Source: Ruania zhangjianzhongii (GTDB taxonomy: Bacteria; Actinomycetota; Actinomycetes; Actinomycetales; Beutenbergiaceae). From it: a stretch of DNA of 64,000 nt. Position 1 is the stretch's first letter. The number at the start of each line of letters is the position of its first letter. This document shows positions 42,974-50,442 of the stretch, in pieces. The translations under genes and the position numbers were made by a program. The stretch covers positions 3,648,882 to 3,712,881 of the forward strand of contig NZ_CP042828.1 in NCBI RefSeq assembly GCF_008000995.1, given 5' to 3'. Under the pieces are notes generated by a model that saw only the letters and a program-made list of their open reading frames with translations, searched no databases and was not told the origin of the DNA.

Positions 42974-45397
42974 TCACTGCGGCGCCGAGAAGCCGTGGGA
43001 GGAGAGCCAGTCGAAGAACTGGCCCGCGTCCAGCACCGGTTTGCCGTACTCGCGCGCTTTGCGCGCCTTCCCGGACTGGGTACCGGTCTCGGCGGTCACC
43101 AGGACGTCGGTGCGGGTCTTGGTCATCGACGGCACGGGGTGTAGGCCGCCGGCGCGCGCCAGCTCCTCCATCTGCGTGCGGCTGAGGGCACCTCCCGACG
43201 GCGTGAGCACCTCTCCCGTGAAGCACACCCGGGCGCCGGGGTACAGCGCCTCCGCGGCTCCGACGATCTCGGGTGCCTGGGCCGCGAGCTGGTCGGTGAG
43301 TCCAGAGCCGAGCAACGTCTCCAGCCCGCTGAGCCGGTCCAGAACGGCGGTACTGGCCGGCACCCGGCCGGCGGCCGTCAGCACCTGCGCCCGGGCCAGT
43401 TGCACGGTCGGCCCGGACAGGTCCGCCATCGCAGGCACGGGGCCACCGAGCAACGCCGCTGAGATCGGCCCGCTCACCGCGAGCAGGTCGGCGAGTCCCG
43501 GCAGGTGCGCCGGCTGCGGCGCCGGGAAGCCGGCGTCCCGGGTGAGCAGGTAGCCCAGCCCGCCGGCCGGCAGGTCAGTCTCGGCCGGGTCGGTGAACGC
43601 GTCCACCGCGTCCGTGGCGGCGCCGTCGGTCTCGAAGGCGGTCAGAGCCTCCCGGGCCAGGTCGAGTGCCGACGGGGCCGGCGGTACCGACAGGGCCGGC
43701 GGTACCGACGGGGCCGGCGCCGAGCGGCCAGGCCGGGCCGGTACGGTCACCAGGACGCCGAGCGGCAGCGGGACCACCGCCCCCAGTCGCTTCAGCTCGA
43801 AGTCGATCAGCGCGATCGTCTCGTCGATGTTCGCCCCGACCGGCGTATACCCCTGAAGCACCGGTGCAAGCACCGCCCACGCTTCGGCCAGGGTGGGGGC
43901 CAGGGCGACATCCGCCGTCGTGATCTGATGGCGCGCCCGAGCATCGGCGAGGTCGCGTTGCGGGTTGACCAAGGTGCTCAGCGCTGTGCCGTCGGGCAGC
44001 GCCACTGCCAGCTCCACCGGACGAGGACGGCTGCGCCGCCCCTCCTCCCCCACGACCAGGGCGGCGATCGCGCAGAACCGGCCCTGCGCCGTCGACGGCC
44101 GTGCCGAAGCGAGGAAACGGGTGATCCGCCGGTCGGACTTGAGGTCCTTGGCCAGCACCGGGCGCCGCAGCACCAGTCCTGCCATCGAGGTGCAGCGGCT
44201 CAGTGCCACATACACCTGCCCGGCGGAGAACGTGCCACCGGTCAGGTCGACCAGCACCCGGTCCAAGGTCTGCCCCTGGCTCTTGTGGATGGTGACCGCC
44301 CACGCCAACCGCAGTGGCAGCTGGGTGAACGTGCCGACCACCTCGTGCCGTAGGGCGCCACCGTCCAGCACCGGCCGGGTCGCCTCCCAGACGTTCCGGC
44401 CGACCTCGGCGGCCGACCCGTCGGTGAAGGTGACCACCACCGACAGCTCGCCGGCACCGCGGCCCGGATCGATGTGCTCGATCCTCCCGAGGGTGCCGTT
44501 CACCCAACGGTCGGCGGGATCGTTGGTGAGCATCATCACCTGGGCCCCCACCTTGAGGTGCAGAGTGGCATCCGCGGGCTCGTCCAAAGTGGACAGGTCG
44601 CCGGTGCGGGTCGCGGTACTGAGGTGCTCGGGGGTGTCCAGCTGTTCCAGCCGCTGCCGGTTCCGGGAGGTGGCCAGCCGGTTCGTCGGCGTGAGGGTGA
44701 GCCAGAGCTCGCCGGCCGGTGGCTGGAACTCTGGATCGGTGCGCTCGTTCAGCTCGGCCATCGCGTGCCCGAGCAGCGCGCCTTCCCGCAGCGCGTTCAA
44801 GATGGCGGTGAGCCGGTCATCGCCGGCCTGCCGGAAGACCGTGGTCAGCTCGACCGTGGGGAACAGCTCGCCCCGGTAGCTGTCCGCAGAGAAGAAGAAC
44901 GGGCTCGCGTACCGGGTGCTGAAATAGTCCGCCTCCCGGTCGGTGACCACCGGCGGGAGCTGGTGCAGATCCCCGACCAGCACGAGCTGTACCCCGCCGA
45001 ACTGGCTCCCCGGGCGCGGGCCGAACCGTTCCAGGGCAGCGGTGAGCATGTCGAACAGGTCGGCGCGCACCATCGAGGCTTCGTCGATGATGAGCGTGTC
45101 CAGCCCGGTGAGGGTCTTCGCGAACCTGCCGGGGCGGTAGCGGCCGCTGCGCACGTCCTCGACGGTGGTGGTGGCGGTCAGGCTGAGCAGCCGGTGGATC
45201 GTGTACCCGGTCACGTTCAGCGCGGCGATCCCCGTGGGCGCCGCCACCACCACGCGGCGCTTCGTGGTGGCCAGGAACTGTCGGATCAGCGTGGACTTCC
45301 CGGTGCCCGCCCGCCCGGTGAGGAACAGGTGCTTCCCGCCCTCGAGCAGCTCCAGGGCACGGCTGAGCTCCTCGGTGCGGACAAGACGGGCGGTCAT
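42974..45397 (-). CDS. PIF1/RecD-like SF1 helicase with C-terminal BRCT domain
   Basis: 807 aa. Helicase domain (~1-430): Walker [17 protein letters not shown], Walker [18 protein letters not shown], and late motif [17 protein letters not shown] followed by [14 protein letters not shown], as in PIF1-family 5'-3' DNA helicases. A Pro-rich linker with tandem DNA repeats (43671-43721) follows. The last ~85 residues ([39 protein letters not shown]) form a BRCT domain like those of NAD ligases and PARP. It probably unwinds DNA at damage or replication blocks. The ATG at 45397 follows TACGGT by 7 nt. Confidence 0.88.
43671..43721 (+). repeat. 18-bp tandem repeat inside the helicase linker
   Basis: Units of 18 bp starting GACGGGGCCGGCGG at 43671 and 43689, plus a 15-bp partial unit at 43707. 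They encode a Pro/Val/Ser-rich linker ([14 protein letters not shown]) between the helicase part and the BRCT domain, so length may vary between strains. Confidence 0.8.
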
Positions 45398-45404
45398 GGT
45401 CACC

Positions 45405-45410
45405 ACCGTA
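45405..45410 (-). promoter_or_regulatory. -10 box of the helicase-BRCT gene
   Basis: TACGGT on the minus strand, 7 nt before the ATG at 45397. Confidence 0.45.
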
Positions 45411-45468
45411 GGTCCGCGCACTGACCGGTGCGCACGCGTTGTCACCGGGGTGCGGCACAGTAGGGGTC

Positions 45469-48650: not shown

Positions 48651-48700
48651 GGGTGTGGGTGCGTCCCGATCGCGCGGGTGTGGGTGCGTCCCGATCGCGC
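48651..48700 (+). repeat. Two 25-bp tandem repeats after the carbonic anhydrase gene
   Basis: Two identical 25-bp units starting GGGTGTGGGTGCG at 48651 and 48676; a third partial unit starts at 48701 (GGGTGTG) and runs into the hairpin. Confidence 0.9.
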
Positions 48701-48708
48701 GGGTGTGA

Positions 48709-48786: not shown

Positions 48787-50331
48787 TCAGTCCCTGAACG
48801 TCTCGATCTGCGCGCCGAGCCGGATCAGCCGCTCCTGCAGCTGCTCGTAGCCGCGGGAGATGATGTCCACCCCGCGCAGCACCGAGGTGCCCTTCGCGGC
48901 GAGCATCGCCAACAGGATCACGACGGCGGGGCGCAGCGCAGGCGGGCAGCTCACCTCTGCACCGGACCAGCGAGTCGGGCCGGTCACGTCCAGCCGGTGC
49001 TGGTCCAGCAGCCGCACGTCCGCGCCCAGGCGGGTCAGGTCGGTCAGGTGGATGGCGCGGTTGTCGTAGACCCAGTCGTGGATGGTGGAGGTTCCGGAGG
49101 CAGTCGCGGCGATCACTGCGAAGAACGGCAGGTTGTCGATGTTCAGACCGGGGAACGGCATCGGGTGGATCTTGTCGATCGGCGCCTTCAGCTCGCTGGG
49201 GTGCACGGTCACATCCACCAGCCGGGTGCGCCCGTTCGCTGCCGCGTACTCCGGCGAGATGGTGTACCGCAGGCCCATCTCGGCCAGCGTGGCCAGCTCG
49301 ATCTCCATGAACTCGATCGGCACTCGGGACACGGTGATCTCCGAGTGGGTGACGATACCGGCGGTGAGCAGGCTCATCGCCTCGACCGGGTCCTCACCGA
49401 GGGAGTAGGTCACGTCGGTGTCGATCTCGCTGAGGCCGTGCACGCGCAGCGTGGTGGTGCCGATCCCCTCGACCTGCACACCGAGCAGCTCCAGGTAGAA
49501 GCACAGGTCCTGGACCATGTAGTTCGGGCTGGCGTTGCGGATCACGGTCACGCCCGGGTGCCGGGCGGCTGCCATCAGTGCGTTCTCGGTGACCGTGTCA
49601 CCACGCTCGGTGAGGACCACGGACAGTTCCTCTGGCTGCCCGCCCGTGACCGCCGCCTGGTACCAGCCACCGGTGGCGAGTACGTCCAGGCCGAACGGCC
49701 GCAGCGCGATCATGTGCGGCTCCACCGTACGGGTGCCCAGGTCGCAACCACCGGCGTAGGGGAGCTGGAAGCTGCTCGTGCGGCCCAGTAGCGGGCCGAG
49801 GAACATGATGATGCTGCGGGTGCGCCGGGCGGCGTCCTCGTCGATGGCGGTCAGATCCAGCTCGGCCGGCGGCACGATCTCCAGGTCCTTGCCGTCCTCG
49901 GACCAGGTGGCCCGCACTCCGATGGAGCGCAGGACGTCCACGATCCGGTCCACCTCGACGATCCGGGCCACCTGGCGCAGCGTGGTGCGGCCCCGATTCA
50001 ACAGCGAGGCGCACAGCAACGCCACGGCACCGTTCTTGGACGTGTTCACCCGGATGGTGCCCGAGAGCTGCTGCCCACCGGTGACCCGCAGGTGCGCCGG
50101 ACGCGGGGCACCGATGGAGAGCAGATCCGCATCGAGTACCTCGTTGATCCGCGACAGCATCTCGACCGAGAGGTTCTGGCTGCCTTGTTCGATTCGGGCG
50201 ATCGCGCTCTGACTCGTACTGAGCAGCTCGGCGAGCTGACTCTGGGTCATCCCCCGGTTCTGCCGGGCCCCCCGGATCAGGCTGCCGATCTGGGCAATGG
50301 TCGTTCGCGAATCCTCGATCACCGTCGTCAT
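48787..50331 (-). CDS. MurA-type enolpyruvyl transferase with N-terminal XRE DNA-binding domain
   Basis: 514 aa. Residues ~14-72 are an XRE helix-turn-helix (RGARQNRGMTQSQLAEL, STSQSAIARIEQG). The rest is UDP-GlcNAc 1-carboxyvinyltransferase: VNTSKNGAVALLCASLL with the active Lys-Asn, YAGGCDLGTRTVEPH with the PEP-attacking Cys at the position of E. coli Cys115, and the closing SRGYEQLQERLIRLGA. Active residues appear intact, so it may start peptidoglycan precursor synthesis while also binding DNA. XRE-MurA proteins occur in other actinobacteria, usually beside an ordinary MurA elsewhere. The ATG at 50331 follows TACGGT by 6 nt. Confidence 0.92.
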   Translation of the reverse strand: MTTVIEDSRTTIAQIGSLIRGARQNRGMTQSQLAELLSTSQSAIARIEQGSQNLSVEMLSRINEVLDADLLSIGAPRPAHLRVTGGQQLSGTIRVNTSKNGAVALLCASLLNRGRTTLRQVARIVEVDRIVDVLRSIGVRATWSEDGKDLEIVPPAELDLTAIDEDAARRTRSIIMFLGPLLGRTSSFQLPYAGGCDLGTRTVEPHMIALRPFGLDVLATGGWYQAAVTGGQPEELSVVLTERGDTVTENALMAAARHPGVTVIRNASPNYMVQDLCFYLELLGVQVEGIGTTTLRVHGLSEIDTDVTYSLGEDPVEAMSLLTAGIVTHSEITVSRVPIEFMEIELATLAEMGLRYTISPEYAAANGRTRLVDVTVHPSELKAPIDKIHPMPFPGLNIDNLPFFAVIAATASGTSTIHDWVYDNRAIHLTDLTRLGADVRLLDQHRLDVTGPTRWSGAEVSCPPALRPAVVILLAMLAAKGTSVLRGVDIISRGYEQLQERLIRLGAQIETFRD

Positions 50332-50337
50332 ATCAGC

Positions 50338-50361
50338 ACCGTATCTCAGATCTGAGATACG
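50338..50361. promoter_or_regulatory. Perfect 22-bp palindrome overlapping the XRE-MurA promoter
   Basis: The palindrome at 50340-50361 has 11-bp arms, left arm CGTATCTCAGA. On the minus strand the -10 box TACGGT (50338-50343) overlaps its end and lies 6 nt before the start codon; TCGACG 16 bp further up is a fair -35. This is the obvious binding site for the protein's own XRE domain. Confidence 0.8.
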
Positions 50362-50442
50362 TCGAGCCCAACACGGGGTTCTGAGACGTAATCTACGCCA
50401 CTACGACCGGCCGAACATGCGGATAGCGGATGATGGCGTACT

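Follow-up and report, generated by a model that had tools for sequence, protein, structure and literature searches.

The 64-kb window of the Ruania zhangjianzhongii genome studied here (i.e., the whole stretch of DNA analyzed, 64,000 nucleotides) carries on its minus strand a gene in which an XRE-type helix-turn-helix (HTH) domain is fused to a MurA-type enolpyruvyl transferase, with a perfect 22-bp palindrome lying over the putative promoter of that same gene. The first peptidoglycan step, that of MurA, uses UDP-N-acetylglucosamine (UDP-GlcNAc) and phosphoenolpyruvate (PEP). Conservation within the fusion family was assessed on 158 non-identical reads of the open reading frame (ORF) out of 168 loci, some of which overlap the same gene. 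The features on which the argument depends are these:

48787..50331, minus strand: XRE-MurA fusion gene, 514 aa (ORF read)
50125..50277, minus strand: HTH_3 (XRE) domain, residues 19-69 (Pfam, E 2.5e-12)
50188..50211, minus strand: third HTH helix (residues 41-48), presumed recognition helix (model and conservation)
within 48787..50331, minus strand: EPSP_synthase domain, residues 83-502 (Pfam, E 1.6e-46)
48796..50094, minus strand: MurA domain, residues 80-512 (NCBIfam match and predicted structure)
50032..50037, minus strand: K99-N100 (same in 158/158 reads)
49744..49746, minus strand: C196 (same in 158/158 reads)
49135..49137, minus strand: D399 (same in 158/158 reads)
50338..50343, minus strand: -10-like TACGGT (TANNNT), sharing four bases with the gene-proximal palindrome arm (sequence read)
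50340..50361, no strand: 22-bp perfect palindrome CGTATCTCAGATCTGAGATACG, proposed operator (exact sequence match and conservation)
50360..50365, minus strand: weak -35-like TCGACG, 16-nt spacer (4/6 to TTGACA by eye)

An earlier, sequence-only reading of this DNA had placed an XRE HTH at residues ~14-72 of a MurA whose Lys-Asn and Cys motifs are kept, and both halves are borne out by the HTH_3 match and by K99/N100 and C196. The catalytic residues of MurA are Lys-Asn, Cys, Asp and Arg. K99-N100, C196 and D399, which we take to be the equivalents of Escherichia coli MurA K22-N23, C115 and D305, are invariant together with R201, R425 and R467 (158/158), while R493 is present in 156 reads and falls in gaps in the remaining two. 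The nearest structures to the EPSP-synthase-like fold are MurA, and the protein scores above the cut-off of PRK09369 (NF006873, the wider MurA subfamily; 311.8 vs 297 bits, NCBIfam) and under that of the TIGR01072 murA equivalog (298.7 vs 392.7 bits), a naming threshold that leaves it outside that equivalog. A second MurA in the same genome is 33% identical to the fusion and has PYPSVGATEQ where the fusion family has the loop TERGDTVTEN, invariant except for T241 and V247 (157/158 each). HTH_3 was matched in 34 of the 39 members of an alignment (A1) of 34 fusion proteins and five other MurAs. In and near the third HTH helix, presumably the recognition helix given its role in XRE structures, T39, Q41, A43, R46 and E48 are invariant across the 158 reads, and S40 and S42 are kept in 157 each. 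The predicted model has four helices at residues 8-66, a linker (residues 71-80) with a mean pLDDT (predicted local distance difference test score) of 58, and a loop around C196 (residues 195-200) with pLDDT <50.

The palindrome that the sequence-only reading described, with 11-bp arms at 50340-50361 overlapping the -10, proves exact and perfect, and it is the only perfect palindrome >16 bp within the window; base composition alone predicts 0.06 palindromes of at least 22 bp per window, or 1e-4 per 100 bp. A genome-wide search for the same palindrome, which that reading had suggested as a route to other targets, found CGTATCTCAGATCTGAGATACG to be unique, with no second copy at ≤3 mismatches in the window or in the whole 5.1-Mb genome. 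Six nucleotides separate the end of the -10-like TACGGT from the ATG of the fusion gene. Start of transcription falls at a usual distance from a -10, which here would place it at or next to the ATG, so the fusion mRNA is likely leaderless, judging by this spacing. The -35-like TCGACG is not conserved (i.e., information is low upstream of the site across homologous loci).

Conservation of the site was examined at 135 distinct loci (137 were considered), drawn from the best 80 among 588 confirmed relatives and from further genomes; a site was defined by a match to the 12 fixed bases of ATCTCANNNNTGAGAT no more than 200 bp upstream of codon 12. At ≤3/12 mismatches the site precedes the fusion gene in 132/135 loci (0 mismatches in 88, 1 in 26, 2 in 8 and 3 in 10, with 4-5 in the remaining 3 loci), compared with 0/135 for the reversed motif, which never did better than 4 mismatches, and 19/675 for shuffled sequences. 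Since close relatives are over-represented in this set, it was checked with 18 new carriers from an evenly drawn sample of the class, all of which have an operator-like site at ≤2 mismatches (control 0/18 at ≤3). The sequence-only reading had held that absence of the palindrome upstream of orthologous XRE-murA genes would refute it; the site is there in 132 of the 135 loci and in all 18 further carriers. Its placement is likewise fixed: TANNNT overlaps the operator arm at the same place in 120/132 homologous sites, and the first in-frame ATG/GTG follows 6-8 nt later in 110 of these 120, the other ten comprising nine with a GTG inside the -10 itself (as scripted) and one with a distance of 5. 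The base just past the gene-side arm, which is part of the -10, is A in 146/150 sites, and its mirror base varies. The neighboring genes also vary between loci (12 loci, ORFs recognized by eye).

The site is nearly exclusive to this promoter. Of 61 carrier genomes, 38 have the exact motif at the fusion promoter (judged by coordinates), and the 61 together hold six copies at other places; the reversed motif gave one match on each strand, in two genomes. A search of 59 relatives for TATCTCANNNNTGAGATA at ≤1 mismatch placed it ahead of the fusion gene in 20 of the 32 that carry the fusion and nowhere in any of the 27 that lack it. Within 300 bp upstream of other murA genes, 32 loci (30 fetched loci plus L002 and L161) hold no site at ≤2 mismatches and one locus holds a site at 3. 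Three other accounts were rejected on these grounds: a chance palindrome, by the low expected count, the confinement to the promoter and conservation far above chance; a wider regulon, by a total of only six stray exact sites across 61 genomes; and control of the other murA genes, by the 0/32 loci at ≤2 mismatches.

Most tested carriers have a second MurA, but the murA model finds no MurA besides the fusion in 28 of 118 genome rows (17/61 carriers, 5/39 genomes of the named loci and 6/18 further carriers). Serinibacter (sole) and Pseudactinotalea (dual) are each counted twice, which gives 27/116, with further doubles possible; two genomes whose second MurA falls under the cut-off (G456, where it lies in two frames, and G469, at 383 bits) were counted as having one. 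Named sole-MurA carriers are Serinibacter arcticus, Rarobacter faecitabidus, Pseudoclavibacter sp. CFCC 11306, Micrococcales bacterium KH10 and Streptomyces aidingensis, and in family f24 all ten carriers tested have the fusion as the only MurA found. With the other MurA as query, only the fusion and weak AroA-like matches came up in the 12 genomes, out of the 17, that were searched this way. All 17 genomes, and the Ruania genome itself, have a MurB match, above cut-off in 17/18 (G022 under). Peptidoglycan synthesis needs MurA; with no other MurA found, the fusion must perform the MurA step in sole-MurA genomes, unless an unknown enzyme does so or one is hidden by an assembly gap. On the strength of these 28 rows, the fusion is probably a working enzyme, beyond any sensor role.

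Several features of these genomes are recorded here in their own right. In two sole-MurA genomes, L220 (G055) and L221 (G022), the fusion frame is split in two, possibly by sequencing errors (both kept in the counts), and MurB of G022 also scores as two weak pieces. The second MurAs beside the fusion are of two kinds, at ~410-440 vs ~500-555 bits to TIGR01072, split by lineage, and a few class genomes carry both. A different second MurA in G027 (L216, G027:C2:287000-302000; 511 bits to TIGR01072) lies ~7 kb from the fusion and, in the tree, sits on a long branch among outside-class MurAs. In family f1, L104 (G009) is alone among 16 dual-MurA genomes inspected in lacking any operator-like site upstream of the fusion, and seven sole-MurA genomes (L095-L100, L221) keep the left operator arm with the right arm drifted, in four of the seven to the more -10-like GGTATA. 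A right arm with ≥2 mismatches occurs in 6/19 sole vs 7/77 dual genomes (p 0.02) and in 5/15 vs 3/27 genera (p 0.11), with G022 and G055 excluded and the best-scoring site within 200 bp taken, an upstream one for Rarobacter and KH10. Operator decay once the fusion is the sole MurA is not claimed, given p 0.11 by genus and rows that are not independent.

A tree was built from 34 fusion rows (of the 135 distinct loci), 33 rows for other MurAs within the class (one gene entering twice) and 16 rows for MurAs beyond the class. A single branch, supported at 100/100 and with a stem length of 3.58 changes per column, parts the fusion rows from all the rest; we are unsure of the exact root, given long-branch effects. 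The fusion occurs in 36/148 evenly drawn genomes of the class. In a sample of the phylum all matches >500 bits fell within the class, and the best of 324 outside-class rows (at most three candidates per genome scored) reached 215 bits. Inspection by eye of the longest frames from 16 outside-class loci revealed no HTH in those showing the MurA strand, a weak check, as several showed the other strand. The fusion proteins make up an actinobacterial clade of their own, in some genomes with no other MurA found.

Taken together, the comparison supports the fusion, a conserved operator in a near-exclusive promoter position, an intact active site and genomes with no other MurA found. Self-control of fusion transcription is strongly supported by comparison, because the site keeps its position ahead of orthologous genes, is nearly confined to this promoter and overlaps the -10, and the recognition helix is near-invariant. 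Site position, XRE type and near-single target further indicate negative autoregulation, and regulators of the XRE type are often autoregulatory and palindrome-binding (PMC12565409). We therefore put forward, with good though not full confidence, that the protein is a working MurA whose own XRE domain makes it a dedicated, near-single-target autorepressor. Specifically, the gene would encode a MurA-type enolpyruvyl transferase carrying an XRE domain on a linker, two HTH domains would bind the palindrome as a dimer and, once bound, would block the -10 and the leaderless mRNA start, repressing the enzyme's own gene. Binding by the fusion protein itself, the dimer state and repression as the sign of control are what we infer from these patterns.

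The sequence-only reading went further and proposed a trigger enzyme that senses precursor supply through its own active site. The comparison supports its claim of self-controlled transcription, and the sole-MurA genomes with MurB present support enzyme function; the step in which a ligand in the active site would alter DNA binding is extrapolated from the open and closed conformations known for MurA. MurA is reported to be feedback inhibited by UDP-N-acetylmuramic acid (UDP-MurNAc), which locks the closed form (PMC9995270). An occupied or closed state (e.g., with UDP-MurNAc), or else the empty state, may change DNA affinity such that precursor level sets MurA level, a proposal that stands outside the confidence just given and that we hold about evenly balanced. 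Were the repressing form closed and product-bound, enzyme activity and control of the gene would be tied together; an empty-state repressor like PutA, or no ligand effect, is equally open. That UDP-GlcNAc/PEP or the feedback inhibitor UDP-MurNAc, bound in the active site, switches operator binding by the XRE domain on or off, making the committed-step enzyme of peptidoglycan synthesis its own gauge of precursor supply, we rate a little short of an even chance. If true, one protein would exert feedback on both activity and transcription—in several actinobacterial lineages on the cell's only MurA. Autorepression could also operate in a narrower form, with the HTH setting the level by the protein's own concentration and the MurA site uninvolved in DNA binding. 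All of the autoregulation evidence fits this form, and the low-confidence linker suggests that the domains may not talk; nothing direct stands against it, but an HTH on an enzyme with known open and closed forms makes coupling plausible (PMC9995270), and we regard the narrower form as somewhat less likely than not.

Other readings part from autorepression by a working enzyme altogether. The MurA domain might serve as a sensor only, binding ligand like MocR regulators without MurA catalysis (or acting on another UDP-sugar), for which the long stem branch, the score under the murA equivalog cut-off and the family-specific loop could speak; the invariant catalytic residues, and the 28 rows with no other MurA found even though MurB is present in all 17 genomes tested, make this very unlikely. 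HTH domains can bind proteins, RodZ being an example, so this one might serve protein contact or localization instead of transcription, or bind the site and activate. A site that overlaps the -10 and adjoins the start is in a position typical of repressors, and both the DNA motif and the HTH helix are conserved, so we judge these roles very unlikely. The palindrome might instead belong to a different regulator, SigB and DmdR1 having been linked to the likely Streptomyces coelicolor orthologue (below). The motif is, however, near-exclusive to the fusion promoter, was not met in 27 relatives without the fusion and stays while neighbor genes differ (12 loci, by eye), which leaves this reading most unlikely.

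The fusion resembles the trigger enzymes of E. coli (PutA, BirA, NadR and PepA; PMC8249747), metabolic enzymes with DNA binding and gene control; PutA is likewise a single-target regulator at its own promoter, as proposed here, and an empty-state repressor (PMC8249747). It differs from them in joining an XRE domain to a peptidoglycan enolpyruvyl transferase (i.e., another enzyme in another pathway), and its ligand dependence is only proposed. Like most carriers tested, Firmicutes with paired MurA paralogues have two UDP-GlcNAc enolpyruvyl transferases in one genome, MurAA and MurAB, for which the available part of the source mentions no DNA-binding domain (PMC12077105). MocR regulators similarly join a DNA-binding domain to an enzyme fold, but their aminotransferase-like domain is described as sensory (PMC5320631), whereas the fusion has an intact active site and can be the only MurA found. 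SCO5998, or 'MurA2', of S. coelicolor is very likely the fusion orthologue, because the S. flaveolus fusion (L044) adjoins a divergent aconitase-like ORF (by eye) as SCO5998 adjoins the SCO5999 aconitase. It was found with a heterologous system to be SigB-dependent (PMC8346170), and is described as having a DmdR1 site by prediction and expression levels anti-correlated with those of dmdR1 (PMC12161575); the available parts of these accounts mention no HTH domain, palindrome or self-control. The SigB promoter letters from PMC8346170 were not found in L052 except for a common hexamer. Among the literature matches listed, with most subscription journals outside the search, none describes an XRE-MurA fusion or its autoregulation. 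These data suggest a function for a widespread paralogue treated as a second MurA or UDP-GlcNAc transferase (SCO5998; PMC12161575, PMC8346170), and they carry a warning that the divergent fusion form may be the only MurA in some lineages.

To our knowledge, it is still largely open by what means actinobacteria adjust the flow into peptidoglycan. Here the first-step enzyme seems to carry both regulator and operator, so that precursor sensing could be tested directly using a single protein, a single DNA site and three known ligands.

Elsewhere in the window, a ~27-base unit (CACACCCGCGCGATCGGGACGCACC...) occurs twice in tandem at 48655-48707, between the fusion gene and a carbonic-anhydrase-like ORF (by eye), and an 823-aa ORF at 42974-45445 (minus strand) resembles a PIF1/RecD-type helicase with a BRCT-like C-terminal end (by eye).
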